This document shows, one piece after another, positions 1 through 20,630 of a stretch of DNA of 37,387 nucleotides (its first letter is position 1; every line of letters begins with the position of its first letter). The stretch comes from Chrysochromulina tobinii. Lineage: Eukaryota; Haptophyta; Prymnesiales; Chrysochromulinaceae. The translations under genes and the position numbers were made by a program. The stretch lies in contig JWZX01003368.1 of NCBI GenBank assembly GCA_001275005.1, positions 1-37,387 on the forward strand. The letters run 5' to 3'. The notes below the pieces were generated by a model that had not been told where the DNA came from, did not search any database, and saw nothing but the letters and a program-made list of their open reading frames with translations.

Positions 1-1090
1 TGCTGCTGCCTCAGGGGAACTCGCCGCGCACAAGCCTCGTGTCCGAGCGCCACGGCATCGAGTTTCGGCAGGTTTGGAAGGTGGCAAGTTCATCGCTCGC
101 CTCATTCTTCTACTGCAACATGTGGGGATCCCTGCGACTCGACAAGCTGCCGCCTAACCAGCCGTTGCCAAAGCGCGCGATGGGCACAGGTGCATCGGCC
201 CCTCGGCTCATTGCTTTCCTGTCCCGTGAGCCAATCAGCCGCTTCGTGGCCTCGTGCTTCGAGGTCCTTGTGCGGCTCCTCAATCATGTCTCGCCAAGCG
301 GGGAGCGAATGCCCGCCGAAATGTACACGGAGCCCAAGGGCCCGTTCTCGCCGAGCGTGCTGCGGCACGGCACGAGCTGGTATGGGCCGCTGCTGCGCAC
401 GCTCAATGCCTCGAGCGCATCGGAGCGAAGGCTGGAGCTCACCGCCCTCGCCAACGGCTTCATCGAAGACATCGAGTGCGCCATCGTCTACACTGCTGCA
501 GAGCATCTCGCCACCCAAATGTCGTTCATTACGAGCGGGTACGAGGAGCGCTCGACGCGCCCCGATGAGATTGCATGTTAATTGCATGTTGATAACATGT
601 AGATAACATGCTGATGGCCTCCCTCATCAGGTACGAGGAGCGCTCGACGCTCGACTTCCAAATCCGGCTGGCCAACGCGACCGTCGACCTTGAGCGGCTC
701 GGGCGGCGCATTACGTACCAAACCCTGCATGGCGTCCCGCCGCATGCCAATACCTCCGTCTGGAAGTGCGCTCTCGGCCGGGAGAATGACGCCTCGAACA
801 AGGCAAAGCTTGCGTTCAGCAAGGCTGACTTCGTTAGCGTGCTCGAGCACAACCCCGCGTTCGTGCAGCGCCTGTGCACGGTTTACATTCAGGACTATCT
901 TTGCTTGGGCTTCGCGCTGCCGCCCGAGTGCGAGGGCGGACGAGAATTGCACCAATGGCCCCATCCTCGGCGGTCGGGCCGACGCGGCGCTCCAGTATCT
1001 GCTGTCGCTGCCCCCGCTGCCATGCAGGCCGCCGTCGCAGGGGACGTCCCTTACATGCAGGGGACGACGGGTTGGCGGACAAGTCAATGA
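1..1090 (+). CDS. Sulfotransferase, 5' partial, one intron
   Basis: The reading frame is open from base 3, so the gene begins before the window. Exons are <1-538 and 631-1090, with the stop TGA at 1088-1090. The stretch FRQVWKVASSSLASFF looks like the 5'-phosphosulfate loop of PAPS-dependent sulfotransferases. REPISRFVASCFEVLVR matches the 3'-phosphate-binding R-x-P-xx-RF/S motif. The second exon contains QDYLCLGFALPPEC, a C-terminal motif I associate with algal and stramenopile sulfotransferases. The enzyme would transfer sulfate from PAPS to a carbohydrate or other acceptor, probably in the secretory pathway; the acceptor cannot be told. The last ~50 residues after PPEC are low complexity and may be poorly conserved. 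The intron joins GG|G to complete a Gly codon (phase 2). Family assignment is fairly sure and the exact N-terminus is unknown. Confidence 0.72.
539..630 (+). other. Intron of the sulfotransferase gene, introner-like
   Basis: The intron is 92 nt, GTACGA...CATCAG. The 21 bases at 538-558 are repeated without mismatch at 630-650, so the start of the intron duplicates the start of the next exon, with an offset equal to the intron length. The two flanking frames fuse cleanly only if this segment is removed. The middle holds AT-rich near-repeats of TTGCATGTT/ATAACATG, and the 3' end is the module CTGATGGCCTCCCTCATCAG (611-630). Confidence 0.85.
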
Positions 1091-1480
1091 GTTCCGAAGC
1101 TCACGAGCCGCGAGCCGCGCGCAGTGCCAGGGTGGCCTGCGGAGCCATGCTAAAACTCACTGGGATCATGGCGGTTGTAATCGCCATAACTGTTTTCCCA
1201 TTTTGAATACACAGCTGTCTCATTCGATAGTCCTGCCCTCCTGTACTGCAAACGCGAAACGGGGGCGGGATCGTCTGGTGTGTGGTAGATCGTAACGTAA
1301 TGGCTGATGCTCGACTTGAGAGATGCATGCGTGAGTTGCGTGGGTAGCTGGGTAGATGGTACGCGTACGGAGCCAGAACCGAACGCTCCGTTCACCTGCT
1401 TGCGTTCGGTTTTAATAGCATTTTCTACATACCGCAACTTGTTTACTATTTGGCTCTACGCTCATTGGAAAACGGCATCG
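1091..1480. other. Intergenic region
   Basis: This lies between the stops of the convergent sulfotransferase and NYN RNase genes. It is less GC-rich than the coding regions and has no ORF with coding character. It presumably holds the two 3' UTRs. Confidence 0.6.
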
Positions 1481-2824
1481 TCAACCAAAAGGCCGACGCG
1501 CCCGATCATCAAAGAGTGCGAGATCGTCGGCGGCGGGCGAGAAGGCGTCGCCGCAGAAGGCAAAACGAATGGTACGTCGGCGGACGGCCTCAGTGGCGTG
1601 GCGCGCTGCTCGGCCCTCCCGCCAAGCGTCGTTGGTCAGGGCCCACGCGCCGTAATCAGCGCAGCACTGGAGTAGGAAGAGGTCGTCGTACTTGCCCGTG
1701 GGTGTAAGTGAGATGCACCCAAGCTGATCGACGTAGGCCAACTCAGGGTCGGCCGCATCCCAGCGGTTCTCGTTGAGTATGACAGCCATCTCGGCCGCGT
1801 GCAGCCGGCGCCCAGTCGTCCGGCGCAGGTAGTAGTCGACGCATAGGCGGATGCCACGCGCCTCGAACCGTGCGTCGCGGCTGTAGTTGAACGCGACGTT
1901 TGCGCCATCGATGATCAGCACGGGCGGGGGCAGCGCACGGGGCGGCCGCGGTACTGGTGCTGGTCCTGGGTCTGCAGCAACGAGCAGATTTGGTGCGAGA
2001 ACGGAGCCCGGCGCCGCGGACGAGCGTGCGGAGCCCTTTCGATCTCCAGCGCGATCTCCAGCGCGATCTCCCACGGCGGTGACCAGCGCATAGCTCGGCC
2101 CGCTCGAGCCTGCGATTGGTGGTGGCGGACATGGCGGCTGCAGCGGGAGCTGGCATGGGGTTCCAGCTGCAAGAGTGCCGCCCGAGAAGAATAGGTGGTC
2201 CCGAAGCGCCTCGCTACGATGCTTGCTGGATCGACGCATCGCACTCGCCGCACCCTCACGCCTCGCTGCGGCCTCGTCGTCCCTTTGCAGCTTCCACGCG
2301 AGGGCAGCAGAGGCGTCCTCACCAGCAACGTGATTTGCGAGCAGAGCACTGTGGCTACGTTGCTCCTCCTCCGCTTCAAGCTGCATGGCGAGTGCTAGCG
2401 ATGCGTCATCGTCTGGCAGAGGAGACGCTGATGCAGCCGCTCGTGCTGCCGCCGACTCAGCAGCGTGATTATGCTGCTGAGCCTCCTCCGCTTCAAGCTG
2501 CATGGCGAGAGCCAGCGATGCGTCATCGTCTGGAAGAGGAGATGCTAATGCAGCCGCATGTGCCGCAGCCACTGCCTCTGCATACGGTCCGCTGCCACGC
2601 GAAAGGAATGCGTCAACGTCCACCTCGACCGTCGAAGCATTGAAACAAGTCTTGAGTTGCTCCAGCGTGATCGCGGGATGAAGCAGCTCGGCAACTTGCT
2701 GCACATCCATCGTCCGGGCTGCAGAGCGGGCCGATCCCGCCAGCACCAAGCCAATCCCAATACCGCGAGTCGACAAGGAAAACGAGTGTCTTCCGGGCCG
2801 CTTGTGAATGGGCTGTAAATACAT
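1481..2824 (-). CDS. NYN/PIN-type ribonuclease (Regnase/N4BP1-like) with UIM-like repeats
   Basis: Single-exon ORF of 447 aa. The C-terminal ~140 residues form a Zc3h12a-type NYN domain: VLIIDGANVAF (first acidic residue), the RGIRLCVDYYL helix, GKYDDLFLL, ALTNDAWREG and FAFCGDAFSPAADD carry the Asp residues expected for a metal-dependent endoribonuclease. In the family, such proteins cleave mRNA or act on ubiquitinated complexes. The N-terminal half contains two copies of a 39-residue unit with DDDASLALAMQLEAEE (near residues 99-114 and 138-153). A third related motif, DASAALAWKLQRDDE, follows. These resemble ubiquitin-interacting motifs. A CUE/UBA-like helix (MDVQQVAELLHPAITLEQLKTCF is the region) precedes them. 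The first Met is at 2824, but the internal Met at 2710 is a more natural start. Only 70 bp separate this gene from the divergent CFAP221 gene. No CCCH zinc finger is visible, unlike animal Regnases. Confidence 0.78.
   Translation of the reverse strand: MYLQPIHKRPGRHSFSLSTRGIGIGLVLAGSARSAARTMDVQQVAELLHPAITLEQLKTCFNASTVEVDVDAFLSRGSGPYAEAVAAAHAAALASPLPDDDASLALAMQLEAEEAQQHNHAAESAAARAAASASPLPDDDASLALAMQLEAEEEQRSHSALLANHVAGEDASAALAWKLQRDDEAAARREGAASAMRRSSKHRSEALRDHLFFSGGTLAAGTPCQLPLQPPCPPPPIAGSSGPSYALVTAVGDRAGDRAGDRKGSARSSAAPGSVLAPNLLVAADPGPAPVPRPPRALPPPVLIIDGANVAFNYSRDARFEARGIRLCVDYYLRRTTGRRLHAAEMAVILNENRWDAADPELAYVDQLGCISLTPTGKYDDLFLLQCCADYGAWALTNDAWREGRAARHATEAVRRRTIRFAFCGDAFSPAADDLALFDDRARRPFG
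2365..2582 (-). repeat. 117-bp in-frame tandem duplication (UIM-like module)
   Basis: Two imperfect copies of a 117-bp unit lie head to tail within the NYN RNase gene; for example GCTTCAAGCTGCATGGCGAG recurs with an offset of 117. The unit equals 39 codons, so the duplication keeps the frame and doubles the UIM-like motif. Confidence 0.7.
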
Positions 2825-2894
2825 ATGTTCACGCCGACTACTCGGAAATGTTGGAAGGGCACGCAGGATTAGGTAGGATTCTCATCACAGTTAC

Positions 2895-5800
2895 ATGTAC
2901 CCGCACGGTGTGAAACCACGCGTGCGGACGTTGCTGTTGCGGCAGTCGAACCCTGTATTGCGGCCGCACGCCACACGCACGCGCCTCAGCACTGGCCACA
3001 TGGTCGCGGGCACGCCGTCCGGGCCGACGGCGTCGGCGCTGGCCTCGTCGATGCGCGCGTTGTACCCGTCGAGTGCCGACGCGACGGCCGTATCGTTGCC
3101 GACGGCGCTCATCTCGGCCGAGCGCCTGCCGCCGCCGAACCCCATGCTGCAAAAGGAGTACGCCAAGATCGGCGGCGCGGGCGCCGTACGCGCGGAGCCG
3201 GCGGCGTTACACTTTGCGGGCATCGAGATCGGCGCGGGCGGCTCGCTTGTGCAGAAGCTGCGGCTCATCAACAGCTCCGGCCACCCCATTCGCATGCACG
3301 TCCTTCCGCCGAGCACGCCCTTCTTCACGATCAGCTTCGAGAAGAAGGGCCGGCTGATGCCGGGCCTGGCCGAGGAGATCATGGTGCGCTTCGCGCCCAA
3401 CGAGGTGCGCTACTACCACGACACCATCAAGGTGCACCTCGGCGACGGCGACGAGAACTGCCTGCTGGTGCCGATCCACGCGTACCCGGCAGTCGGCGAG
3501 CTTGCCTTCCCGGCGCGCGTCGACTTCGGGATCGTGGCGCAGGGGCAGTCGCGCGAGCGCGTGCTGCCGCTACACTCGCCCGATGGCGCCGAGTTCGAGT
3601 GGCGCATCGAGGTGCGCCAACCGCACGCTGACTTTGTGATACAGCCGAGATCGGGCATCGTGCCCGCACGCGGCGAGGCGGCCATTGTCGTCACGTTCAC
3701 GCCGTCGCGTTTGGCCACGGCGCACTGCGTCTTCGAGCTGCTGATCGCGCAGCTCGGCTATGCGCCCAAAACGATCTCTCTCGTCGGCACGTCCGCGCCG
3801 CTCCAGGTCAAGGACGCGACGCTCGCCCGCTTGCGGCACAGCGAAGATGAGCGCCTGGCTTCCGAGGAGGCCGAGTTCCGGGGGCGCATGTTCCCAAACG
3901 GGGCGCGGCGGGCGGCGGGGGACGATCCGAGCTTGGACGATCCCGCTAGCGGCGCGGCGGGCGACCCGGCTCTCGCGCCCTCGGTGCTCACTGCGCCGCC
4001 CCCCACCGGCCTGATCGAAAAGATCGCCCACGAGGCGCCCTACGGCGGCGGCTCGGCGGGCGGTGACTATGTGACGCGCGCGCGCGCGGCGCAGCTGCGC
4101 GAGGCGATCGGCGACGCGTCCGTCGAGGTCAAGTACCGGGAGGAGCGCCCGTCATACCCCGAGGAAATGAAGGAGGGCTTGCGCGTGCCGCCCTTCCTCT
4201 CGAACCAGTATGCAGTCAACTCGATGCTGCTGCAGCAGCCGTATAAGATGCGGGTCTCGGACTTGCGAGTCGCCATCGAGGAGCAGCAGGCGGACGCGGC
4301 GCGCCAGCAGGAGGAGATGGAGCTCGCGGCGATGGCGAGCCTGCCAGTGCAGTCGCAGCTGCTACAGTCGCTCGGCAAGCGTGTCGATGACGTCATCGCG
4401 TACCTGTTCGCGCGCGATTCGAATGGCGTCGGAACCGTCACCCGCAAACAGTTCCTGGGCGTACGCCATTTGCTCAAGGTGGCGTGCCTGATGGCATCCC
4501 TCATCTGATGACGTGCTTGATGGCCTCCCTCATCTGATGACGTGCCTGATGGCCTCCCTCATCTGATGACGTGCCTGATTGCCTCCCTCATCAGGTGCCC
4601 ACGGCTACGGCGGCGGACATGGGCGAGTTCTTCGACGGGATGGACCACCTCAACGCGGGGGAGCTCGACTATATGCAGCTGCAACGTGTGGCCAAGCGGC
4701 GTGCGGCGACTTTGGGCGGCGGCACGGGGCGGATGGCGTCAACGTCCGTCGAGCCGGGAGAGCTCGACATCGCGCTGCAGGGCCCCGAGCGTACGCGCCA
4801 GCTCAAGGACATGCTCTTCATGAAGGAGGTGGATGCCATCGAGACGTACGAGAAGATGAAGGAGGTCAAGTCCTTCGTGGCCACCGGCCCGCCGCTGACG
4901 CAGCCGTTCATCATCGAGGCCACTCACCGCGCTCGCGACGTTTTCTACGCCGAGAAGAGGCGTGAGGAGCGCGCGGTGGCGCGCGCGCGCCAAGCGACCG
5001 AGCTGTCCGATCCGGCCAAGGTACGCGTCGAAATCTCCGAGCCCGTGGCGAAGCTTGCTGCCGACACGACGCCCAAGTTTGACTCGTATGAGGCTGAGGT
5101 GTGGGGAAAGCGCGAGGGGGTGATGTTCGACCTGCAGCTGGCGGTGCGCGTGGCCACACTACGCGCGCGCCTCAGCCGGCGCGTGGCTGCTGTGCATGCG
5201 GCGCTGGCCAAGGCCGGCATAGGGCTGCACGACAAGCACGCGGTCCATCAGCTTGTCCTCTCGCGCTCGAAGGCAGGTGGCGGCGGCGGCGGCAAGTCGG
5301 CCGGCCTCGGGAGCTCCTCAACCCTGTCCGACGGCACGGTCGGTGGTGGGGGCCTCTCCGCTCTGGCCAAGGCGGCCAAGGCTGTGGGGCTGAGCATGGA
5401 GGGCCTCGCGCCCTTCATATTTCCGGAGGCGCCCTCCAAGGGGGCAGGCGTGCCGCAGGGGGATCCTCTCCCCATCCTGCCGATTGAGCCGTTTGATGAA
5501 ACCAAGCTCTTCGCCCTTCGCGTGCCTCGCCGGTACGTGCAGATGGACTATCGCGAGGCGCTGCTGAGCGCGCCGGGCGCTTTCCCGCCAATGGTGGATG
5601 ATCGGCCGCTGCGCATCGGCGCGCCGTTTGAATCGGGCCGGTTGCTCCCGACTGGGACAGCTGTACCGGTGCCGGATACGTGGGGTCTGCCGTCGCTGCT
5701 GCTCATGCCGCCGCCGCGCCCGCCGCCGCCGCCCGAGCCCGCCGACCCAACTATGGATGACCTGTCGGCGACCAAGGCGCTGGGTGGCGACGAGGCCAAG

Positions 5801-6633
5801 GAGGCGGCCGGCGACGAGGAGGAAGATGCCGAGCTGTCTTGGGATGAGAAGCATCGGATGCATCTGGCCCAGCTCAAGCCGCCGATACTTGTGCAGGTGC
5901 ATCCGCGGGTCATGTGCCGCCCTCCTCGCGCTAATGGCCTCCCTCATTGCATGCTGATTGCCTCCCTCATTGCATGCAGGTGCATCCGCGGGTCATGTGC
6001 CGCCCTCCTCGCGCTGTGGAGACGGATGCGCGTCAGATGTTCCGCCCGATGCCGCTCACCTGCAACGAGTTTTGGAAGGCGGAGCCGATCGGCTTCGGAT
6101 CGGGCCTTGTGCTGCTCGAGGCCGCCTCCCTCTCAAGCGTGTGGCGGCGTACGGCGGACCCCTGGGCGGATGCAGTCGCCGAGCTACCCGAGCGAATGGA
6201 GGACGTCAACCCGCCCGACGCCGCAAAGGAGCTGTCGGAGGACGAGAGCGATACCGAGATCGACCCGTCGTTGCTCTTCCCGCCCTCGCTGGATAAAGTC
6301 GGCCAGATTTTCGACTTGCCGACGCTGCCGGAGGCCGGTACCCTTTTGCCCAACGAAGCCGCCGGCTCGGCCGCGGCCGCCGTGGACGCGAAGCAGGCGT
6401 CGCCGGCGGCGGCGGCGTCTGAGTCGGTCGACGATGGCGACGTGTCGATCGCGCCCGAGCGCGACCTCATCGTCGATGCTCAGTCGGAGCGAGCGCGCGC
6501 CGAGGCGGACCTCGAGCTGCAGGCCCGCCAGGCGCGACGCATGCAGAGGCTCCGGCTGCGCGAGCAGCTCGCCGCGCTCAACGAGCACATCGAGCAGCCT
6601 CGCCACCAACTGAGCCTCACGCAAGGAGCCTAA
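2895..6633 (+). CDS. CFAP221: CFAP221/PCDP1 ciliary central-apparatus protein, three exons
   Basis: Exons 2895-4478, 4595-5896 and 5980-6633 give about 1179 aa; both introns are phase 0. The N-terminal third matches the PCDP1/FAP221 pattern: KEYAKIGG, RAEPAALHFAG, INSSGHPIRMHVLPPSTPFF, EKKGRLMPGLAEEIMVRFAPNE, RYYHDTIKVH and LLVPIHAYPAVGELAFPARVDFG. These form two ASH/MSP-like beta domains (about residues 90-310), as in HYDIN-type proteins. KFDSYEAEVWGKREGVMFDLQ and a C-terminal FRPMPLTCNEFW region also fit the family. In Chlamydomonas and animals this protein sits in the C1d projection of the central pair and binds calmodulin to regulate ciliary beating, so the organism should have motile 9+2 cilia. 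A degenerate EF-hand-like segment (FARDSNGVGTVTRKQF followed by DHLNAGELDYMQLQRV) straddles intron 1. The start at 2895 is the first Met; starts near residue 36 or 53 are possible. I am confident of the family. Confidence 0.88.
4479..4594 (+). other. CFAP221 intron 1, built of 29-bp tandem repeats
   Basis: The intron is 116 nt, donor AAG|GTGGCG, acceptor CATCAG|GTGCCC. After five bases it consists entirely of 3.8 copies of a 29-bp unit (GTGCCTGATGGCCTCCCTCATCTGATGAC with one or two changes, written here only by its start GTGCCTGATGGCC and end CATCTGATGAC). The last copy is cut at TCATCAG to give the acceptor. Unlike most introns here, it has no long duplicate of the flanking exon. Confidence 0.85.
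5897..5979 (+). other. CFAP221 intron 2, flanked by a 41-bp perfect duplication
   Basis: The intron is 83 nt, CAG|GTGCATCC...GCATGCAG|GTGCATCC. Bases 5892-5932 and 5975-6015 are identical over 41 bp, with an offset equal to the intron length. Between the copies lie two runs of GCCTCCCTCATTGCATG, related to the shared 3' module. Removing the intron joins two frames that both belong to CFAP221. Confidence 0.87.
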
Positions 6634-7077
6634 TTAGGCAAGGAGCCCCGCGAGGGCGGGAGCAGCAGGGCACGCGTGAAAGTCAAGGACGATCATGGGA
6701 ACATTGTGGGGCGCGGTGTGTACCGGTCCTGGCGGCGACGGCGCGAGAGCCAGACCCAGTTCGCAAGCCACGTAAGACTAAAAGTGAGAGCCAGGCCGCG
6801 CAACCGGCCGCGCAACCAAGCGCGAAGTGTGCCTGTGAGGGACTGACTCACTTACACACTGACTCACTCACCCGTACCTGCATATGCCGTACCGAAAAGA
6901 TAGTGGGTGCGCACCTCTCCAAATTGTGTATGGCGACGGGTTATCCCGGCGTCGTTCATAGGGAGACGACGACTTGACTTGACTTGACTTGACTACATGT
7001 CCTGCCCGTGGCTTTGCGGTCTTTGCGGTCGAGTCGTCGAAAAGGCCGCCAGAGCTCCACAACAGGACGTGGACGCC
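6634..7077. other. Intergenic region with 3' end of CFAP221 and upstream region of the next gene
   Basis: GCAAGGAGCC occurs twice around the CFAP221 stop codon, separated by TAATTAG. The stretch after the stop has some coding-like character in two frames, so an alternative C-terminus cannot be excluded. Further right are GACTCACT-type repeats and the TTGAC pentamer array listed separately. Confidence 0.4.
6971..6993 (+). promoter_or_regulatory. (TTGAC)n pentamer array upstream of a gene
   Basis: The pentamer GACTT is repeated four times plus GAC. It lies 85-107 bp upstream of the likely ATG at 7078. The same array, in the same orientation relative to the gene and at a similar distance, precedes the AP-3 delta gene. 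It may be a promoter element or a microsatellite. Confidence 0.4.
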
Positions 7078-7458
7078 ATGTTCGCAGCGCAGCTCGCGCT
7101 CTGGGCGCGGCGGGCGCGCCTACTTCCCATCGCGCAGCCGCTGCGGCTATTGGCGCTCTCGCCACCCCGACTGTCTTGCGTTGCCTCGGTGCAGCTGCCT
7201 GTCGACGCGCCTGCGAGCGGCGCGCTGCGCGATGTCGCGACTGCGGTGTTGCCCGCCTTGGCTGCGGCGTGGACGCTTTTCCCACCCGTCTTGGCAGACC
7301 TCATGCCGAGCATCCTGATGACCGGCAAGCGCCGAACTTCGGGCAAGAGCAAACGGCATCCAAAACCCGCCAATCACGGCGCGCGTGCCTGCAACCACGT
7401 CGGTAGGAGGCAGCGTGCTGCAGCAATTGGCAACCTAAAGTATGCGACGAAAAAGTAA
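7078..7458 (+). CDS. Small basic protein, probably organelle-targeted
   Basis: The frame is open from the ATG at 6997, but the Met at 7078 gives a better start. That start gives 126 aa whose N-terminus (MFAAQLALWARRARLLPIAQPLRLL is the region) is Arg/Leu/Ala-rich with no acidic residues, like a mitochondrial presequence. The C-terminal ~45 residues are very basic (GKRRTSGKSKRHPKP, then ANHGARACNHVGRRQRAAA and KYATKK) and look like the conserved core. Size, charge and targeting suggest a mitochondrial ribosomal or RNA-binding protein, but I do not recognise the family with certainty. The gene is convergent with uL29m, itself a mitoribosomal protein; that is context only. Confidence 0.55.
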   Translation: MFAAQLALWARRARLLPIAQPLRLLALSPPRLSCVASVQLPVDAPASGALRDVATAVLPALAAAWTLFPPVLADLMPSILMTGKRRTSGKSKRHPKPANHGARACNHVGRRQRAAAIGNLKYATKK

Positions 7459-7755
7459 GTGCATCAGGTGACGCATCTGTTCTCTGTGTTGGGCGTGTAC
7501 TGCAAGCCGCCTCCGCACTCATGTGAAACTCATGTGTGCATCACTTTTGGCCCGCGACCTGATTTTAGATTTATCGTGAGGACGTTAATGGGCTATCGTG
7601 TCGAAGTATCGGCGCATCTCGCCAGGACACACGCACACACTTGCTCTCTACCCCAGAAAACGGCACGTCGTGGACCGCACGCGTTTCGGTTTCTACGGAG
7701 CCGATGGCGGGCCCGGCGCGGGACTGGGAGCGACATGGCCATGAAGGCCATGTGC

Positions 7756-8814: not shown

Positions 8815-9044
8815 AGGGTCCCGTGCCCCTTGTTCTTCAATTCACAACGCAACAAAAACGCTTCTTACGCACGCGATGTGCAACGCAAACTGCGCTCACA
8901 TTCTACCAATACACCTCGGAAATAACGACAGTAAAGTTCAGCGAGTTTTTGGGATTTGGGTTGAACGACGATGGTCTTCCTGGGCGCGGACTCCGACGGA
9001 CGGGCGGCCTCTTCCCTCGTGCCGCTCTGGCGCGCGCGGGGAGG

Positions 9045-12000
9045 ATGAAGGCGGCCGTCACGGAGCGGCCGGGCGCGAAGGCGGCCGTCACGGAGCGGCC
9101 GGGCGCGATGCTCAAAGGAGCTCCGCCACCGCCGCCAGCCAAAGGCGCGCCTTCGGGCAAAGGCGTAGCCGCCGGCGCTGTTGCTCCAACAGCCCCTCCA
9201 CCGAGCAAGATCAGCACCTTCCGGCAAGGCGACCGTTGTGCGGTGAAGAGTGATACAGTCAGCGGCACAGGCGTGATTCAGTTCGTTGGCGAGGTTGCAT
9301 CGTTAGGCCCTGGGATGTGGGTGGGGGTGCTTCACGATGAGCCCGTTGGGACCTCGAACGGTGTCATCGACGGCCGGCGGCTCTTCGCGTGCCCCAACAA
9401 GCACGGCGGATTCTACGCCGTGCACGAGATTCGTGTGGACAAGCACGCCGATGAGAAGGCATCCGGCGGTGTCCCGAAGGCGTCCGGCGGTATCCCGCAG
9501 TCAACTGCGTCACCGTCTGGGGCCGTCGGTGACGAGGCTGGTCCCTCGGTCCCTTGCGCGGCGACGAGTGTCGCTGCGGGCCGTGGCCTGCATACGGCCG
9601 TGGTGGCACAGCTCTCGCAGATTACGATCACGTGCAACGATGCGTATGGGCGACGAACGAGCGGCGGGGATTCCCTGAGCGTCATCGTGCGTGGCGTCAG
9701 TCCACCGACGCAACTGCGCGTCAAGCTGCACGACCACGGCAAGGGAGTCTACGTGGCAGAGTACCGCGCGGAGCTCTCGGGCCAGCTGCTGATCGCGGTG
9801 TGCATCCGAGGCGAGGCCGTGCCAGGAAGTCCCTTCTCGGTGGAGGCGTTGTCGCTGCACGCTGAGGCATCGCAGTGCAAGCTGAGGGGAAACGCCCTCG
9901 TGGCGGCCGTGGCGCGGAAGCCGATGGCGTTTGAGATCGACTTTGTCGATGCGCTCGGCAACCCCGCGGCGGCCGAGGAACTCGACGTGCGGCTCGAGAG
10001 GGCGGAGCCCCTGCCGCCGGAGGCGGCGCCCGTCGGCATTGATGGTGACGAGGGACAGGATGCCGAGGCGCTGGCGGAGGAGAAGGCCGCGTTCGAGGAG
10101 CGCCTCGCTGCGGTCGGCACGCTTTGCGTCCTCCTGAGCAAGGCGTCGGGACTCGACTCGGCGGATCTGAACGGCAAGAGTGACCCGTACGTCGTACTGC
10201 TGTGCGCGGAGCACAAGGCGAAGAGCACGATCAAGCCCAAGACGCTGAGCCCCGTGTGGAACGAAGACTTCTCGTTTGCTGGTACGCTCCAGTCCTTTGT
10301 CACGTCGGGCCTGATGGTCAAGGTGTACGACTGCGACAATCCTCTCAAGCCGGAGAAGGATGATCTCCTCGGCGAGAAGCTCGTGTCCCTCGACAGCTTG
10401 AAGCATCAGAACACGAGCGAGTTAGTCGAGTTCCTGTCCCTCCAGGTAAAGGGGGAAACTAAGCCCGTGCCCAAGGGCAAGGTCATGCTCACGGTGACGT
10501 GGCAGCCGCCGCCCGGTGCGGAGGACGATGACATGAGCGCGAAACTGCTCGTGGGCGACGAGCGGGTGAGAGGATCGCGCCCTCTGATTGCCTCTGATGA
10601 CCGTTTGATGACACCCCTCATCGGCGTGCTGCAGGTGGTGAGGGGATCGCGCCCTCTGATTCTGCGCGAGCGTTGTGAGAAGAACTCGGCGGTGCTGTGC
10701 ATGCTACCCCCAGGCTCCCGGCTGCAGCTTCACGAGCTCAGGGAGATGAGTGACGGTACCCGTGCGCGCGTGCGCGTGGTCAGCTTCTCGGACCCGGTCT
10801 TCGGAGCTTCTTCGAAACTCAAGACCGCACGCCCCGCGGCGACCGCTCGGCTACCCGCACCCGCCCTTCCAGTTGGCGAGTAGCTCATTGGATGGGTCAC
10901 AGCATGGTACGCCAACGGGCGACGCATGCTGGTCAAGAGGCATTTGAAGCTCGACGCGAACGAGCGGCGCCGGCAGCTCGAGCTGTGGAACAAACGGACC
11001 TTTGACGAGAGGGCGCTGATGCAGCTCCAGGGGAAGGAGAAGGCCCAAGGCAAGGAGAAGGAGTTCAACGTGGGCTCGAGCTTCGTGCATGAGCTCGCTG
11101 AAGGCCCTCGTAAGATCGCGTTCGCGTGCGGCGGCGTCTTCCCGGGCACGCTCCACGCGCACGGCGCGCTGATCAAGACGCACCAAGTGTCGTACAGCGT
11201 CGGCGCTGCGGGCAAGTACCTGATGCACGTGGGCCTTCGCCAGCAGTCGGTGGTGCTTCCAGGCTCCCCGTTTGCTCTCGAGGTGAAGCCCGGTCCCGCG
11301 CACACTGAAGACCTCTGATGACCTCTGATGACCTCTGATTGAATCTGATGGCATCTGATTGCCTCCCAGGTGAAGCCCGGTCCCGCGCACGCGCCGTCGA
11401 CCAAGTTTCCCGAGGACGTGCTGCCGCTGCAAACGGTGGTCGGCACCCAAGGAAGGCTTGTCGTCCACTTATCCGACTGCATGGGCAACAAGTGCATCGA
11501 AGGCGGCGCTCATCTCGAGGTCTCGGTCAACACGAACGGCGCGCCCAAGGCCGCTCTCACGTGTAAGTGCGACGACCAGCAGGACGGCACCTTCCTAGTC
11601 ACCTGGTCCAGCGAGGTAAGCCACAAGTTGCATGCTCGAGCTCAAGATCCACAGCATGCATGTGCTCACCACGACGCTCCACCACTTCCCCACAGGTGAG
11701 CCACAAGTACATGCTCGAGCTCAAGATCCACGGGGTGCACATCGTCGGCTCCCCGGCGCCGCTGACCCTGCTTCCTGGAGACCTCGAGGTGAGCCGCTGC
11801 TCGCTGCTCGCGCCTCGCGAGGCTGTCGCGGGCGTCGCGAGCCTGGTCGAGACCAAGTGTTGCGACGCGTATGGGAATGAGGTTGCGCCGGACGTACTCG
11901 CGGGCCATGCGCCACCCTTTGGACTCCTCCTCGTGCCCGCGCTGCTCAAGGGCGTCAGCGGGCCGACCGGCAAAGACGGACGGGACGTCGAGGAGAAGCG

Positions 12001-13599
12001 CGGTCCCAACAAGGGCGACCACGTGGACGAGAAGCGCCGCGCAGCCCTGCTCAAGAAGGAGGAGCGCGCAAACCTCGTCAAGACGCTCGACACGATGAGC
12101 TTCCATGGCTCGTGGGACGGGTCCCGAATGAAGATGAGCTTCGTGCCCAAAGAGGCCGGCGACTTTGAGTTGCATGTTTGGTGCGAGCCCAACACAATTG
12201 GGGTTCGTCAGTTCCTTCCAGGCTGCCCGACGATGATACACGTGAAACCGGGGCGTGCTAGTGCGATTGGTTCGCATGTCCGATCCGATGGCGCGTCCGT
12301 CGCGCTGCTCACCGCCGGCGACAAGCTCGCCCTTAAGGTCCAGTGGCTGATGAGCTTTGATTGCCTCCCTCATCAGGTCTGATGAGCTTTGATTGCCTCC
12401 CTCATCAGGTCCAGATCTGCGACGAGTTCAACAACTTCGTCTCCCTCGCATCGGCGTCTGATATGACCTCGATGCTCGAGACGCCCATCGGGCAGCTCGC
12501 GCTGATCCAGAAGACGAGCGAGAAGCTCGAGGATCACAAGGAGGGCGACAAGAAGAAGCACAGCGTCGCCGCCGGCTCGTCCGCGGTCGGGCTGTACGAG
12601 ATCGTGAGCCCGGGCGAGCTCACTGTTAAGGGTGCGCATAGGGTATCGATCCAGCTCTTCGGCGAATCGATCACGGGCGCGCCCATCAATATTATGGTGG
12701 CGCCCGGGCCGCCAGTCTATCATAAGAGCTACCTCGAGGCCAAGGGTAGCCGACAGGAGATCGATTCTCCCATCGACGTCATCCTCCATCTTCTCGACAA
12801 GTACGGCAATCGGTGCGAGCAGGGCGGCGTACGCGTGGACGCGAAGGCGTACGGCTCCAAGGCGAGCGAGGCCAAGGTGATCGACAATCCGAACTGGCCA
12901 TTGATGGCGCCCTTCATCAGCCTCCCTCATCAGCCTCCTTGATTGTACCTTGATTGCCTCCCTCATCAGGTGGTCGACAATTCGAACGGGACCTTTTCGA
13001 TCTCGTTCAGCGCGGCGGTCCCGGGCGATTACAAGGTCCAATGCCGCCTCGAGAATGCAGACTTGCAAGTGCTGCAGCTACACGTCCTCGAAAAGGGCGA
13101 GAAGGCCGACAAGGCGGATTACGATGAGGAGATAGCGCCAGCCCTCAGAGCCCTCGCCAGCTCCAAGCCTCCAGCCCCTCCAAAGTCCGCAAGGTCAGCC
13201 TCGTCACCGACTTCGTCGGTGGTCACGGCGCCTTCAGCGCTGCCACCGGCCCCCATGATGCCCCCGCGGCCACCTGACGGCATGTCGGGTCCGGAAGCCG
13301 CCCTAGTCAAGCAAGATGCAGACGCAGCCAAGAAGAAGAGCAAAGAGAAGGGCAGCAAGACTGGCCGTGAAGAGAAGAGCGCCCGTGAAGAGAAGGGCGC
13401 TCGTGAAGAGAAGGGCGCTCCGAGCGCCACGAGCGCCGTGACGAGCGCTACCGAGGACGAGAGCACCAAGAAGACGGCCCGGGCCGGTAGCGGCAAGGGC
13501 ATCAAAACTGGGCGCGAAAGTACTGCGAGCAGTCCACCAACACCAAAGAAGGACGCCGCCAAGAAGGGTGGTAGTAAAACCGTGAGGGTGGTTGGATGA
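9045..13599 (+). CDS. CAP-Gly, C2 and filamin-repeat multidomain protein, seven exons
   Basis: Inferred exons are 9045-10565, 10635-10778, 10884-11282, 11370-11615, 11696-12337, 12409-12876 and 12970-13599 (about 1349 aa; all introns phase 0). After a Pro-rich N-terminus comes a CAP-Gly domain (residues ~62-128, GPGMWVGVLHDEP...HGGFYAVHEIR). Its usual GKNDG is replaced by GTSNG, so tubulin-tail binding may be altered. A filamin-type Ig repeat follows (~185-270, ITITCNDAYG...GSPFSVEAL), then a C2 domain (~358-470, GLDSADLNGKSDPYV with Ca-binding Asp residues), an SH3-like stretch (LHELREMSDGTRARVRV...IGWVTAWYANGR), and more filamin-like repeats (GKYLMHVGLRQQ..VLPGSPFALEV and later copies). The tail is Lys/Ser/Ala-rich and disordered. 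It probably links microtubules, actin and membrane in a calcium-responsive way; this is inference. The start is the first in-frame ATG close to the CAP-Gly; the frame is open back to 8823. The exon ending at 10778 is the least certain. Confidence 0.8.
9048..9108 (+). repeat. 30-bp in-frame tandem duplication
   Basis: A 30-bp unit starting AAGGCGGCCGTCACGGAGCG is present twice in a row just after the likely start codon, encoding KAAVTERPGA twice. Confidence 0.7.
10566..10634 (+). other. In-frame 69-nt intron flanked by near-identical direct repeats
   Basis: Donor CGG|GTGAGA and acceptor CTGCAG|GTGGTG. GTGAGAGGATCGCGCCCTCT starting at 10566 recurs with one mismatch at 10638 (24 bp in total, offset 72). 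The interior has TGATT/TGATG and CCCCTCATC motifs related to the shared module. The length is a multiple of three with no stop, so retention would add 23 residues. Splicing is inferred from the repeat structure, because the open frame alone does not demand it. Confidence 0.65.
10779..10883 (+). other. Probable intron containing an in-frame TAG
   Basis: The frame is continuous on both sides except for TAG at 10881-10883. That TAG can serve as the acceptor (GCGAGTAG|CTCATT), with a donor at GTG|GTCAGC, giving a 105-nt phase 0 intron. This joins DGTRARVRV to LIGWVTAWYANGR, which reads as one SH3-like unit. The donor choice is uncertain because several GT pairs lie nearby. It has no flanking duplication and no shared module. 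Confidence 0.5.
11283..11369 (+). other. Intron flanked by a 23-bp perfect duplication
   Basis: The intron is 87 nt, GAG|GTGAAG...CTCCCAG|GTGAAG. Bases 11281-11303 and 11368-11390 are identical over 23 bp. The interior is a run of CCTCTGATGA repeats ending in TGATTGCCTCCCAG, a shortened form of the shared module. It contains stops, so it must be removed. Confidence 0.87.
11616..11695 (+). other. Intron flanked by a ~37-bp diverged duplication
   Basis: The intron is 80 nt, GAG|GTAAGCC...CCCCACAG|GTGAGCC. About 37 bases from 11614 recur from 11694 with a few differences, one a single-base indel. In the intron copy the donor is GTAAG, in the exon copy GTGAG. The shared CATCAG module is absent; the 3' end is an ordinary pyrimidine tract, CTCCACCACTTCCCCACAG. 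Confidence 0.85.
12338..12408 (+). other. Intron containing two tandem copies of the shared module
   Basis: The intron is 71 nt, AAG|GTCCAG...CATCAG|GTCCAG. Flanking identity is only AGGTCCAG (8 bp). The interior is almost exactly two copies of a 32-bp unit beginning CTGATGAGCTTTGATTGCCT and ending in CATCAGGT, so a second potential acceptor lies at 12376. Confidence 0.85.
12877..12969 (+). other. Intron flanked by a diverged 23-bp duplication
   Basis: The intron is 93 nt, AAG|GTGATC...CATCAG|GTGGTC. The 23 bases from 12875 match the 23 from 12968 with three mismatches. The interior carries two extra partial modules (TTCATCAGCC, CCTCCCTCATCAGCC) before the final TGATTGCCTCCCTCATCAG. It contains stops. 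Confidence 0.85.
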
Positions 13600-13856
13600 G
13601 ACGTCAGCAACAGTCACCTAGGGGCAACCTGGCAAGACCCGCGCAGCACACGCACATCAGAACGGCATGCCTCCCAGCGCAGTATTGGAAATTGCCGTGC
13701 GAGGTGCGAGCCGGATGCGGATCGCGTATTCCATCTAGTTAATTACCGAACGACCGGGTACCTCTTCAGGTGTCAGGAGGTATAGTACGTGTTCGACAAT
13801 CGCGTATTCGATAACGTACTGAGTCGTGAGTGAAACTGAGTGCAGAGTAGACACTC

Positions 13857-16587
13857 TTAGAGGGTGACGAGGGGTGCCTCGCCTCCTGCCGCGTCGCTGG
13901 ATCGGTGCTTGCGGCGGCGGCGCTTCTCCTTCGGCGCCCCGGCATCCTCAGGCTGCGCGGGCGCTCCGAACGCCTCCCCGTCCGCGTCTCCGAGCAGGTT
14001 GACAAGGAACGGCCCCTTTGCATGGCTGAGCAGGGCTTTGGACGGCGCAGCCAGCGGCGTGGCTGCGGTCGCTCCTGCGCCGCCGGCCATTTCAGGCACG
14101 CGTCGCTCGTCGTCATCGTCATCGTCGCCGGCCCCTTCGGGCATGGCTTCGTCAAGATCAACGGCCGTAACGGCCTCCTCGTCTCCGAATGCATGCGTAC
14201 CGCCTGCCATATGAGCCAAGTCGCCCGCGCCCGCAGCGGCGCCGCCCCTGCTGCTAGCGCCGCTGCCAGTGGTGGTGGCACCTTCGGAGTACATTAGAGA
14301 CGGCTCTGCCGCGCCGGGCAGCGCGGTGCTCGGCGGGCCGGCAGGCTCGTCCGTCGCCAGGTAGTACGGGCCGGCGCGCCCGGGGCGTCGTGCGCCGTCG
14401 GAGGAGGCGGAGGTGGCACTGCCCGGATAGGCGGTCGGCGTGGAGGGCGTGGAGGGCGCGGCGGGCGCGGTTGGCGGCGGCGGCGGCGTGTACAGGGGCG
14501 TGTGTAGGTCAAGGTCCGCTGGCGGCTTCACCTTACGCTGAGCTTTTGGGGCCACCGCCCGGAGCTCCACCGTGAGACCCTGCCGCAAGGCCGCGAGCAG
14601 CCGCAGCGCACTCGGCTCGGGCCAGCTCGGATCGGGCCCACCACCCGCACTCGGATCGGTCCAGCTCGGCTCGCGCCCACCCAACGCGACGGCGCCCAAC
14701 GCGGCGGGCGCGTGCATCAGCTTGGCCGAGCTCCCGAGCTCGGCGCCGTGTCGGGCGTGCGCACCGGCGCCGAGCACGAGCACGAGCACCTCAGCGGCCG
14801 AGGTGGCGCGTTCGCTCACCTCGAGGTGCGGGGAGGCATAGAAGCGGCACAGCGCGCCGTACGTGGAGCGCACGAGCGCTCGCAGCGCCGCGGCCTCGTC
14901 CCCTTGGCACGTCGCGCCGGGTCGATCGAGCGTGGCGAGGGCGCTCTCTACCTTGGGCAGGTGGACCAGAACGCGGGGGGCCGCCTGCACGCATGCCGCC
15001 TGGACAGACGGGGAGAGTGAAGCCACCGCTGGGCACAGGAGCACCTCGAGTGACCGAAGCTGTGAAGACGGTGGCAGCTGTGAAGAGTGCTCGCCCAAGA
15101 CCCAGGCGGCCGCGTACAGCGTGGCATCCGGCTGGAGCAGGCCGGGCAGGGAGGCGCCCGCCATTTGGTCGAGCGCCGTCTCGAGCACCTCGAGTGCCTT
15201 CTCCGCCGCAAAGCCGCGTACGGACTGTACGCGGAGCGTCACCTCGACGAGGAGCTGCGCCACGTCAGCATCGTGCTTCGAGGGGAGCGCCGCGAGCGCA
15301 AAGAGCGTCGTGACGAGCCAGCGGAAGGACGGCACGTGGGAGAAGCTCTCGGCCTTCACAGCCGCCAGGAGAACCTCAATCACCTCGTCGCGATACGAGC
15401 TCTCGCTAGTGTACAGCTGTCCCATCAGCTTCGCGACCAGCCCCGGCAGGCTCGCGCGGCTGACCATCCCCGAGATCAGGCTGAGAGCGCGTTGACGAAC
15501 CGTCGGCTGGTCGTCGAGGCATTTGAGAATCGCGTCGCGGCAAGGCTCGACCAACGCCTTGTCCGCCCTCTGAAGCTCCGCGAGCGCGAGCAGCCCGAGG
15601 GCCTGCAGGTTCGGGTCGCTCGTCTCGATGAAGCCCTGAAGGTGCGTCGCAGTCAGCTGCGCGAGCTGAGGGCTCGAGTCGGCCATCGTCGAGGCGACCG
15701 TGTACAGGCATTCAAACTGGAGCGATTTGGCGGGAGTCGTCTCGATCAAATGGGTGAGGGGCTGGACGAGCTTCTTGGCGAGCCGCGGCTCATGGGGCAC
15801 GAGCTGCCGAAGGAACTTGACCACCTTAATGAGCGTCCAGTTGGAGGACGAGGTGGTGAGCACCTGTGGGGAGACGCGAGGGCGCCGTAGTCAGCACTTG
15901 CATGCAGAGTGGCGTCCGGTGAAAGGACGAGGCAGTGAGCACCTGGTAGAGCGCGGGGGCTAGCCCGAGGTACCCTTTGGGATTCTCGGTCGCGAGCTCG
16001 GTGAGCACGTTGACGGTGCACGAGACGACGTTCGGATCAGGGTCGTCGAGCTTCTCGCGCAGCCGCGGGAACGCGGTCGGCAGCGCCTCGGGCAGACGCC
16101 GCAGCAGCCGGTACAGCGCGATGACCGCCTTTTTGCGCACGAGAGGGCGCGACGAGGAGAGCAGATTGGTCACGTCCTGAAGCAGGTCGCGCGAGAGGTC
16201 GGGCGTCGCCATGACTGAGAGGCTGTTGAGCGCGAGCGACGCGTCGTGGTGCACCGACGACGCGAACGACTTGCGCAGCAGGTTGGTCGTGAGCAGCATG
16301 ACGTCCGTCGCATCCGTGAAGGTCTGCGCGGCGGCGAGGTAGCCGATGCGCTTCCCGCGAAAGCGCGGCGAGGCCATCAGGTCGACGAAGTGAAAGGCGG
16401 CCCACGAGACGTCCTGGCCGAGCATGTGCATGTACATGAGCTTGAGCACTGCATGCTGCTTGACCGTCGTGTCCGTGCTCGAGAGCTCGCCCTTGCACTC
16501 GGTGATGCAGGTGGCAAGGTACGCGGCCTCGTTTTGCGGGTTGGCGCGGATGCCTTTGATCATATCGTTGAGTGTCTTCTCGAACAT
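13857..16587 (-). CDS. AP3D1: AP-3 complex subunit delta, two exons
   Basis: On the minus strand, exon 1 is 16587-15943 and exon 2 is 15863-13857, giving 883 aa with a phase 0 junction. The N-terminal ~570 residues are an adaptin armadillo trunk: KTLNDMIKGIRANPQNEAAY, HVHLLGQDVSWAAFHFVDLM-like helices, KKAVIALYRLLRRLPEALP, and DPNVVSCTVNVLTELATENPKGYLGLAPALYQ. This continues across the intron as VLTTSSSNWTLIKVVKFL and EPRLAKKLVQPLTHLI. The wording fits AP-3 delta better than AP-1 gamma or AP-2 alpha. The second half is a Pro/Ala/Ser-rich hinge and ends in a basic patch, KEKRRRRKHRSSD. No appendage domain is recognisable, so the protein is shorter than animal delta. AP-3 sorts cargo from endosome or Golgi to lysosome- or vacuole-related organelles. 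Confidence 0.88.
15864..15942 (-). other. AP-3 delta intron flanked by a 22-bp duplication
   Basis: The intron is 79 nt on the minus strand, CAG|GTGCTCACTG...CCCCACAG|GTGCTCACCA. Plus-strand bases 15845-15866 match 15924-15945 with two mismatches. A third, weaker copy (AGTGCTGACTACGGCGCCCTC on the minus strand, shown here to 20 bases at most: AGTGCTGACTACGGCGCCCT) lies inside the intron. The shared CATCAG module is absent. Confidence 0.83.
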
Positions 16588-16894
16588 GGCTGCAAAGAGT
16601 TGGAGCAGTGCTCACTGGCGATGGCAATCGTCCGGCGCGGGCGCCTGCGACGGCTTTCCTCCTTCGCACTTGACAAAAGAGGGCAAATCAAGTCAAGTCA
16701 AGTCAAGTCAAAGAACGCTCATCCCTCGCCCGGCACGCATGCACGCAACCGAGTTTCAAACGAGACAGACTTTCGTGGGGCATACATGTACATGTTTAGG
16801 GTCTGCAGGCCGCAATTGCCCCAATTGGAAACCAACACATGGGGATTTTTCTCCGTAGAGGGCCGGCACAACCTCAGGAGTCCCACGTACGCCA
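16588..16894. promoter_or_regulatory. Divergent promoter region, AP-3 delta / PRMT-like
   Basis: This spacer of about 300 bp lies between two divergently transcribed genes. It contains the TCAAG pentamer array at 16688-16711 (TTGAC on the AP-3 delta strand). The array lies about 100 bp upstream of that gene's ATG. No other clear motif is seen. Confidence 0.5.
16688..16711 (-). promoter_or_regulatory. (TTGAC)n pentamer array upstream of AP-3 delta
   Basis: TCAAG is repeated four times plus TCAA on the plus strand, so it reads TTGAC on the strand of AP-3 delta. The array is about 101 bp upstream of the start codon, a spacing close to that of the array before the gene at 7078. Confidence 0.4.
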
Positions 16895-18291
16895 ATGCTG
16901 TCTGTCGCTGTGGCCTGTTGCCCGGTCCTCGGTTCCAGTGCAACAGTCGCTGTGGCAATGGCCTGTACTGCACCGCGATCGTGCACCTCGTCGATGCTGT
17001 CAAAGCTGGAAGGAACCTCGTGGCACCCTTCTGTGGACGGTGCTGCCGCATTCGTTACCTTCACGGACGAAATGTACGAGGCGATGCTGCACGACGACGC
17101 TCGCACATCGGCCTTCGGACTAGCGATAAGCCGGAGGGTGCGTGCACACGCGGGCGACTGCGTCGTCCTCGACCTGGGAACGGGCCCATTTGCAGTGCTG
17201 GCCCTCTTCGCTGCGCGTGCAGGCGCCTCAAAAGTGTTTGCCGTCGAAGCCAATCCGGAAGCCGCGGCGAAAGCCCGCGCCTTGATCGCGAGCTCTGCAG
17301 CGTCTGACATTCCGCCAGGAACGATTGAGATAATCGAGGGCTTCTCGACGACGATCACGCTGCCGGAGCAGGCCGACCTGCTCATCTCCGAGATTGCGGG
17401 CTCGATTGCATCCGAAGAGGGCATGTTGGCCACGATCCGCGACGCGAGGCTGCGGCACATGAAGCGGCCGTGGGATCCCCGCTCCTATATCCCCGCCCGC
17501 GTCCAAACGCTCGCCGTACCTGCCGCCTACAGCCTTCACCACCGGCTCAATTGCGATTGGATCGCCTCTGGCCCTCCTGTGAGGTTTGCGTGCGACAACC
17601 CGTGGCTGCTCCCGCTCGCGACACCGCAGCTGTGGGAAGACTTTGCCTTCGGAGGCGAGGAGCTGCCGCCTGGATCGGGTGCGCGTTGCACGACGGTGCT
17701 CGAGTTCCGCGTGTGCGCGTCCACCCTCAAGGCCAACGCAGCTCGCTTGCTCGAGCAGCTCGATCTGCACGACGTCGACGCGGACCGAGCCGGTGTGCCC
17801 AAGCAAGGCCGCTCACAAAACCCTGCGCGCTGCGCCATGCCCTGCGCGGCCCGCCCCGAGCAGCTCGCCGATAGCTCGCCGAGCGCCTCTGATTATACTC
17901 CGATGGCCGCTGATTGCGACGGATTGCATGTTTGCTTCCCTCATCAGGTGCCCAAGGCCGCTCACTCGCGCAGCTCGCCGAGGACGTGGCGCACTCTCTG
18001 TCCGGGCTCGCCTGCTGGCCACGCCTCGTGCTCGATGAAGGCGGTGGTGGACCAGTCGACGAGCCCCCCATCCCTCCCATCGTCATCGAATCGCGCGGCA
18101 TGCGCGGAGAACCCTTTCGTAGCCATTGGCAAACGGTGCTCCCGTTGCTGTCGACGAGGCCAACGCCGGTCAAGGCGGGTGCGCTCATCTCAGTGAAGGC
18201 GACTGTTGAACTGAGCATGGACGTTGAGTTGCCGCCCTATTATGAGATCGAGGCTTCCATAGAGTACCCATGTGATGGCGCGCTGCCCTGA
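16895..18291 (+). CDS. PRMT-like SAM-dependent methyltransferase, two exons
   Basis: Exons are 16895-17792 and 17948-18291 (413 aa). The Rossmann fold is seen in CVVLDLGTGPFAVLALFAARAG (motif I) and KVFAVEANPEA (acidic end of beta 2). ADLLISEIAGSIASEEG resembles the double-E loop of protein arginine methyltransferases. The C-terminal part (FRSHWQTVLPLL, GALISVKATVELS) looks like the PRMT beta barrel. An N-terminal DEMYEAMLHDDARTSAFG also matches PRMT entry helices. Arginine methylation is therefore likely, but the substrate is unknown and the double-E loop is not canonical. The intron boundary is fixed by the change of frame: GCC G|GT GCC CAA. A Met at 16997 is an alternative start. Confidence 0.72.
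17793..17947 (+). other. Intron of the PRMT-like gene, diverged duplication
   Basis: The intron is 155 nt, CCG|GTGTGCCCAAG...CCTCATCAG|GTGCCCAAG. The intron start (GTGCCCAAGcaagGCCGCTCAC) and a later stretch (GAGCAGCTCGCC, TAGCTCGCCGAG) are rearranged relatives of the following exon start (GTGCCCAAGGCCGCTCAC, CGCAGCTCGCCGAG). The 3' end carries a variant of the shared module, TTGCTTCCCTCATCAG. The intron is required to move to the C-terminal frame. Confidence 0.82.
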
Positions 18292-20615: not shown

Positions 20616-20630
20616 CATGCGCGTACGCTT

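Follow-up and report, generated by a model that had tools for sequence, protein, structure and literature searches.

The window analysed here, a 37,387-nt stretch of DNA from Chrysochromulina tobinii, a member of a haptophyte algal genus, raises the question of how its introns came to begin with a copy of the exon that follows them. An earlier note had claimed such copying for at least eight of twelve inferred introns. We modelled ten introns, and eight of them copy the next exon (A1, B2, C1, C2, C3, C5, D1 and E1; Table 1); the exceptions are B1, for which comparison with the exon revealed no target copy (best match 5 bases), and C4. The three pairs described as perfect (538-558/630-650, 5892-5932/5975-6015 and 11281-11303/11368-11390) were letter-for-letter identical on re-check, and the diverged copies reported near 10566, 11614, 12875, 15924 (minus strand) and 17793 were found again in the introns modelled there. 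The offset between copies, said to equal the intron length in nearly all cases, does so without reserve in 5/8, so that wording was slightly too strong; the other three deviate by a one-base indel (11616), an offset of 72 for a 69-base intron (10566) and an offset of 149 versus 155 (17793). In C1, the second copy begins 3 nt inside the exon, and one codon would therefore be added. When the window was scanned blind for direct repeats standing alone, five were returned, all of them introns; the 5892 pair was not picked up by that scan.

Table 1. Modelled introns and host genes in the window.
Feature	Positions	Strand	Length (nt)	Body and target copies, or remarks
Intron A1	539..630	+	92	family 1 body; copies 539-558 and 631-650
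Gene B	2895..6633	+		host of B1 and B2; single open frame once both introns are removed
Intron B1	4479..4594	+	116	family 1 body, made of 29-bp repeats
Intron B2	5897..5979	+	83	family 1 body, TTGCATGCAG end; copies 5897-5932 and 5980-6015
Gene C	9046..13599	+		host of C1-C5; start approximate; one in-frame stop near 10883, unexplained
Intron C1	10566..10634	+	69	diverged family 1 body; copies 10566-10589 and 10638-10661
Intron C2	11283..11369	+	87	family 1, CTGATGACCT repeats; copies 11283-11303 and 11370-11390
Intron C3	11616..11695	+	80	family 2 body; copies 11616-11652 and 11696-11731, one indel
Intron C4	12338..12408	+	71	32-bp family 1 unit, twice in tandem; shares just 6 bp (GTCCAG) with exon
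Intron C5	12877..12969	+	93	family 1; diverged copies 12877-12894 and 12970-12987
Intron D1 (AP-3 delta gene)	15864..15942	-	79	family 2 body; copies 15924-15942 and 15845-15863
Intron E1	17793..17947	+	155	family 1 end; decayed copy 17804-17816 vs 17953-17965

The copied segment is only the first part of each intron. Between the two target copies lies a short body, with a median length of about 50 bases, that is common to introns genome-wide; that the bodies are repeat families had not been mentioned in the earlier note. Family 1 ends in CTGATTGCCTCCCTCATCAG; across the genome, CTCCCTCATCAGGT has 1,208 exact matches and GATTGCCTCCCTCAT has 1,381, with 0 for the reversed controls of each. The family 2 core, GTGCTCAYYACGGCGCC, has 802 exact matches (controls 0), and the 3' module of this family consists of GTGCTCACCACGGCGCC, then a C-rich stretch, then CAG. 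Similar intron sequences occur at many unrelated gene positions of one genome, as in introners, and several unrelated bodies have similar geometry. When no splice-site filter was applied, the three letters following CCTCCCTCAT were CAG in 81/129 copies and TGC in 21/129, and the base following CTCCCTCATCAG was G in 74/82, with GT in 55/82. By inspection, the TGC class is mostly of the TGCATGCAG form, and in one array some 3' joints lie at places other than CAG. Exact 20-mers of family 1 had no match in viral_contigs or genome_contigs, collections from which records near this genome may be absent. Eight loci from a motif search (L001-L008) stand outside all of these counts.

A direct repeat scoring at least 12 and starting no more than 3 nt from the exon start was present at 65/148 acceptors bearing the family 1 body motif, versus 1.9% of 699 mismatched exon/upstream pairs; these acceptors came from the window and 40 sampled stretches, 20 of which were selected for motif density, so 65/148 is not a genome-wide rate. 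By the criteria used, the other 83/148 had no copy. Repeats of that score located anywhere were found at 90/148 acceptors versus 11.7% of control pairs, and in 53 of the 90 the exon's first base was the exact repeat start. Searching for the repeat start without constraint proved too noisy because the bodies contain internal repeats. Blind scanning of the window plus the random sample gave 3/7 for GT/AG versus 0, 0 and 1 for the controls; in the motif-dense stretches it did not discriminate (GT/AG 19/82; three pairs of control dinucleotides, 14, 10 and 6). Our first, unfiltered GT..AG repeat scan was swamped by tandem arrays and so proves nothing (195 hits for GT/AG; four other dinucleotide pairs gave 248, 210, 220 and 223, and a further three gave 75, 10 and 10).

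Of 48 family 1 insertions, 46 had target duplications (TSDs) of 12-42 bp, and 27 different lengths occurred among all 48. In 22/48 the copies were free of mismatches, which upholds the earlier impression of an active process. Because the CTCCCTCAT motif and an AG|G end were search criteria for these 48 insertions, the conservation of both is partly by construction. For family 2, a repeat at an AG accompanied 19/35 core matches, and 6 of those 19 repeats start with something other than GT.

Frames, homology and one protein with exact joins argue that the inserts appear to be removed as introns. Removal of family 1 inserts fitted the reading frame at 22/28 testable sites, where one third would be expected, and at 19/20 of the clearest; it failed at 6/28. 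These 28 were retained from 65 repeat sites after those whose flanks contained body motifs, or that lay too close to an end, had been set aside, and the codon model was trained on the window genes, which also supply 3/28 test sites. Family 2 removal fitted at 12/19 sites and failed at 7/19. Prp16 aligns to human PRP16 (E 1e-143) once five family 1 introns are removed, and each of the five, if retained, brings in-frame stops.

Within the window, the A1 copies are identical at 20/20 positions, the body terminates in CTGATGGCCTCCCTCATCAG, and the frame is consistent with removal. The B2 copies are identical at 36/36; protein P0120 reads through B2 unspliced, P0118 and P0119 run continuous over its join, and gene B residues 820-1080 are matched by 10 proteins. 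A public protein, P0129 (99% identical), contains three exact exon joins, at C2, C3 and C4; only in the spliced frame does its tail align over the C4 join. This protein may represent either a transcript or an intronless allele. Protein P0128 runs continuous across C5. For D1, the spliced AP-3 delta protein aligns without a gap at residue 215.

We propose, with a probability of roughly 0.88 on this sequence evidence, that the inserts are introners, short dispersed sequences that become spliceosomal introns on insertion into coding exons, and that several stages in the birth of introns are visible within one genome. One of the readings offered before us, recent gain through insertions that duplicate a long target, is supported. 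In the sequence, the insert brings the 3' splice-site module (CTGATTGCCTCCCTCATCAG in family 1; GTGCTCACCACGGCGCC, the C-rich stretch and CAG in family 2), with its CAG end usually adjoining an exon G, mostly GT. The target, usually of 12-43 bp, is duplicated; the left copy provides the 5' splice site and the right copy restores the exon, so the protein would be unchanged. Afterwards, the target copies decay. CTGAT in family 1 and CTCAC in family 2 are candidate branch points, and slippage probably lengthens the 10-11 bp repeats of family 1.

Template copying is suggested by the long and variable duplication, the variable 5' end and microhomology at the 5' joint. Such microhomology averaged 2.2 nt at 27 sites versus 0.65 in simulation, and 0/400 simulations were as high; 8/27 sites have none, two reach 8 nt and are perhaps arrays, and the mean without those two is 1.8. 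Copies were left out if they exceeded 45 bp, had over 3 mismatches or contained element-like letters, and the simulation replaced an earlier permutation because the latter ignored chance extension of the duplication. Target-primed reverse transcription, as in SINEs and LINEs, produces variable TSDs, a fixed 3' end, a variable 5' end and 5' microhomology. All four features are found here, the fixed 3' end being partly set by our search criteria, although the bodies are far shorter and no enzyme is linked to them. RVT_1 profile matches number 26 in the genome; in the two places examined, one of them an LTR-type polyprotein by reading, the body motif was absent, and no mobilising enzyme was found in these two of the 26. 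Target-primed reverse transcription of intron RNA and staggered-break repair that switches template to an introner already in place are each possible routes, at somewhat less than even odds. It is more doubtful that the spliced-out product is itself the mobile molecule, its mobility yielding new introns.

Variable duplications and 5' microhomology would also be expected had staggered double-strand breaks captured filler by chance, no mobile element being involved, and had selection kept the captures carrying a 3' splice site. The abundant repeats would then be merely the commonest filler, an account that overlaps with the template-switching route. The similar geometry of several unrelated bodies, the joints away from CAG in one array (by inspection) and nested duplications like those described in passages on Daphnia (PMC4202315) favour it. 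Direct repeats are present, but the fillers belong to families. Against chance capture, CAG ends 81/129 motif copies; the repeat start is most often the exon's first base; and the Daphnia exon repeats in those passages are only 4-12 bp. The inserts are, moreover, sense to coding at 30/34 testable sites. The strand test took in 48 family 1 and 15/19 family 2 insertions (four with other donors were dropped), of which 34 remained once those flanked by body motifs or lying too close to an end had been removed. We consider chance capture rather unlikely.

Cut-and-paste transposition of MITE-like introners, to which the 2022 survey, in the passages drawn on here, attributes most introner spread (PMC9860276), is considerably less probable: CTGATGAG...CTCATCAG-like ends occur in 6/48 insertions, but TIR-like ends are absent from 42/48, and the 27 TSD lengths contrast with the short, fixed-length TSDs of such transposition. 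A transposase, the favoured model for the majority of introners, does not fit with duplications that are long and variable. The earlier note had also offered tandem duplication of an AGGT-containing exon segment, a route described in parts of a review (PMC3443670) and in keeping with copies that begin at or near G|GT and with offsets equal to intron length in 5/8 window cases; however, the exon copy makes up no more than the beginning of the intron, the remainder being a body common to many genes, so for family 1 and family 2 introns this explanation is refuted, and we give it very little credence. Least probable of all is assembly artefact or repeat noise: the assembly is fragmented (2,253 contigs) and rich in tandem repeats, and in the unfiltered scan several control dinucleotides matched as often as GT/AG did, but the frame fit, the Prp16 and AP-3 homologies and protein P0120, which has another source, differs in at least one residue and reads through the same intron B2, argue against it.

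If introners, these elements resemble those in the consulted parts of the 2022 survey in that similar introns lie at many sites in many genes, the exon is mostly restored precisely, some families bring the 3' splice site and borrow the 5' one from the TSD, and hosts are mostly aquatic (PMC9860276). They differ in their 12-43 bp, variable TSDs, against the 3-9 bp cited there (Gozashti et al. 2022, PMC9860276), and in a variable 5' end. As described in the same passages, the survey demanded similarity near both intron ends, a detection rule rather than a biological definition, and removed low-complexity families; here, the 5' part is a locus-specific target copy in 48 insertions, and the repeat-rich bodies are of the kind filtered out. 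Since those rules would probably hide such introns, this class may occur elsewhere. Family 5 introners of Chrysochromulina sp., as presented there, likewise have TSDs and no TIRs, but their TSD is 4 bp and they bring the 5' splice site and borrow the 3' one, the opposite of what we find.

Likenesses to other systems are partial, as judged from passages of each source. New introns of Daphnia pulex likewise repeat part of the neighbouring exon directly and show nested insertions and internal repeats, but their exon repeats are shorter, break repair is invoked and the passages describe no shared element (PMC4202315). Amoebophrya introners are mobile introns with direct repeats over exon boundaries; unlike those here, the direct repeats are 3-5 nt, inverted repeats are 8-20 nt and splice sites are non-canonical (PMC7789003). 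Fungal introner-like elements and stwintrons are repeated introns functional on the coding strand only, but have long inverted repeats and lack flanking duplications (PMC8469720).

The burst-like origin of introns is a long-standing question. This genome captures different stages of the process, and the target can still be read on either side; the duplications pinpoint the site of insertion to the single base, which makes it directly testable. Divergence between target copies is an unclean measure of age. P0128 begins within the 3' end of C2, an intron with perfect copies, but runs without a break over C3, where the copies have diverged: a genomic P0128 would speak against a simple TSD clock, whereas one derived from a transcript only partly spliced would not.

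An earlier note on this DNA had claimed that, for many introns of the window, the start duplicates the exon that follows, and our analysis confirmed it: the three perfect repeat pairs were exact, and eight of the ten introns that we modelled, spread over five genes, carried a recognisable copy. A blind scan of the window, which missed one known pair, returned five isolated direct repeats, every one of them an intron. The introns are more than exon copies, however, and their bodies are built from repeat families.

Features in the window and in sampled loci (L numbers) elsewhere
Feature	Sequence	Position	Strand	Observation
Gene B	window	2895-6633	+	
Intron B1	window	4479-4594	+	no copy of following exon found
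Intron B2	window	5897-5979	+	
Gene C	window	9046-13599	+	sole named match from Chrysochromulina tobinii, 41%
Intron C1	window	10566-10634	+	
In-frame stop, gene C	window	~10883	+	between domains; unrecognised intron, two genes or sequence error
Intron C2	window	11283-11369	+	
Intron C3	window	11616-11695	+	diverged GTGCTCAYYACGGCGCC copy
Intron C4	window	12338-12408	+	only 6 bp in common with exon
Intron C5	window	12877-12969	+	
Intron	window	15864-15942		diverged GTGCTCAYYACGGCGCC copy
Tandem region	window	20378-20725		~62-bp units and 42-bp perfect repeat, spacing 53, introner-like letters; acceptor scan gave no target copy; possibly a non-genic cluster
Single-frame gene	window	31038-32255		
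Prp16 gene	L014	5549-7592		five family 1 introns
Array	L012	~5706-6300	-	seven motif copies, repeated exon pieces, differing 3' joints; repeated insertion into, or duplication at, a single exon
Other repeat bodies	L024, L020, L043, L045	7685, 2007, 931, 537 (respectively)		10-14 bp repeats flanked by long direct repeats; possible further introner families
Contig end (IMG/VR), phage-like frames	L052	4380-4554		family 2 core, 25 letters exact; GACGAACCCT repeat; near-identical flanks either side; perhaps a chimeric contig

Across the genome, GATTGCCTCCCTCAT occurred 1,381 times and CTCCCTCATCAGGT 1,208 times, and the reversed pattern of each was absent. Repeats of 10–11 bp, such as CTGATGACCT, often lay upstream of this family 1 end; exact two-unit 20-mers of CTGATGACCT numbered 1,624 (overlapping ones included) versus 1 in the control. 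Conservation of the 3' end among our 48 clean family 1 insertions was partly built in by the search criteria, and a better measure is given by end counts in the loci with no splice-site filter: CCTCCCTCAT was followed by CAG in 81/129 cases and by TGC in 21/129, and CTCCCTCATCAG by G in 74/82 and by GT in 55/82. The core of family 2, GTGCTCAYYACGGCGCC, is unrelated to family 1 and had 802 exact copies, with none in the control. Further repeat bodies flanked by long direct repeats were present in the sampled loci. A Ty3-like LTR retroelement open frame, assigned by reading of the letters, was seen on contig C2236, and the introner motif was absent from it.

Target duplications were measured in 20 stretches picked for motif density, 20 randomly drawn contig starts and the window. 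A repeat (score ≥12) starting within 3 nt of the exon was found at 65 of 148 family 1 acceptors, versus 1.9% of 699 control pairings. In the random 50 kb we counted three family 1 acceptors, of which one showed such a repeat, together with a single family 2 insertion whose duplication measured 35 bp; the density of the motif-chosen stretches is therefore not typical. Duplication length among the 48 clean family 1 insertions was 12–42 bp in 46 (the other two were longer, with element-like repeats), with a median of 25 and 27 different lengths, and 77% of the introns were 60–105 nt long. For family 2, 19 of 35 core matches showed a repeat placed at an AG, and of these 19 repeats, 18 were 19–43 bp long and 13 began with GT. 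Copies were free of mismatches in 22/48 family 1 and 3/19 family 2 insertions. Nested insertions at one CAG|GT were also seen.

Four lines of sequence evidence (frames, Prp16, AP-3 delta and public proteins) agree in suggesting that the segments are removed as introns. Codon-usage frames flanking family 1 segments fit removal at 22 of 28 testable sites, where one third is expected, and at 19 of 20 with the clearest calls; for family 2 the figures were 12/19 and, where clear, 10/13. Prp16, itself a splicing helicase gene, contains five introns of family 1; a target copy is not clear in every one of them. Its spliced protein matched human PRP16 (E 1e-143): residues 207, 243.67 and 312.67 mark joins that aligned without gaps, the join at 369 adjoins a gap of one residue, and the join at 27.67 falls within a separate gapless block. 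Retention of any of the five would introduce in-frame stops. The AP-3 delta intron join in the window was likewise gapless in alignment.

Among public proteins matching gene C, P0129 (99% identical) is uninterrupted across both C2 and C3. Over the C4 join its tail, which is frameshifted, aligned with a score of 153 in the spliced frame, and no genomic frame gave more than 84. P0128 (92%), which starts inside C2, is uninterrupted across C3, C4 and C5. For gene B, P0118 shows 95% identity across the region that was searched and is uninterrupted at B1 and B2. Each of these three proteins may come from a spliced transcript or from an allele lacking the introns. P0120 has a different origin and differs by at least one residue; it reads through B2 unspliced, and B2 is therefore probably not an assembly error.

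We propose that the insert would supply the 3' splice site and probably the branch point, as CTGAT and CTCAC resemble the branch-point consensus YTNAY. The GT of the 5' splice site would come from the exon: once the target is duplicated, one GT-bearing copy would lie inside the intron and the other would restore the exon. Exon-derived donors were GT in 41/65 and GC in 10/65, under an acceptor rule that demanded a following G. The body varies at its 5' end. Across 27 testable 5' joints, the tail of the target matched, over a mean of 2.2 nt, the letters that precede this repeat phase at other places in the body; simulated random joins gave 0.65, and 2.2 was reached in 0 of 400 simulations. Eight joints had no such microhomology, and two had 8 nt; these two may be arrays, and the mean excluding them is 1.8. 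Insertions lay in the sense of the stronger coding signal in 30 of 34 testable cases from both families (p = 6e-6), and their flanks carried more coding signal than random positions did (p = 3e-5). This bias can reflect selection against unspliced copies, insertion bias, or both.

Two routes fit these observations. In one, intron RNA would be reverse-transcribed at a nicked target, and the frequent CAG end and sense bias point that way; in the other, a staggered break would be repaired with a switch of template, towards which some joints of the L012 array point, as by inspection they lie off CAG. A cut-and-paste transposase is disfavored by the variable duplication lengths and the few inverted ends (6/48 family 1 insertions).

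The nearest known kind of element is the introner. The 2022 introner survey cites target duplications of 3–9 bp for characterised families; it demands similarity near both intron ends and discards low-complexity families, rules under which the present class would probably have been missed (PMC9860276). A 2025 survey gives repeats of 4–30 bp (mean 11.4) at introns generally (PMC11782384). New introns of Daphnia differ in having exon repeats of 4–12 bp, ascribed to staggered breaks (PMC4202315), and fungal stwintrons in being described without flanking duplications (PMC8469720); the intron-rich Amorphochlora is reported without introner features (PMC12730881). A full-text literature search, covering few subscription papers, returned no title or abstract opening describing such a structure. 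The phenomenon is genuine and unusual, and apparently recent. Its kind of element is already known; what distinguishes it as a novel variant is its long, variable duplications, the putative pairing of a 3' module brought by the insert with a 5' splice site borrowed from the target, bodies made of repeats, and its copy number.

The assembly comprises 53.15 Mb in 2,253 contigs, the window being one of these. For the single-frame gene near by, the best named match was Emiliania huxleyi (67% identity), with metagenome proteins ranking above it at up to 94%. The source of the DNA is probably an uncultured haptophyte. A U2 snRNA gene was found in the genome.
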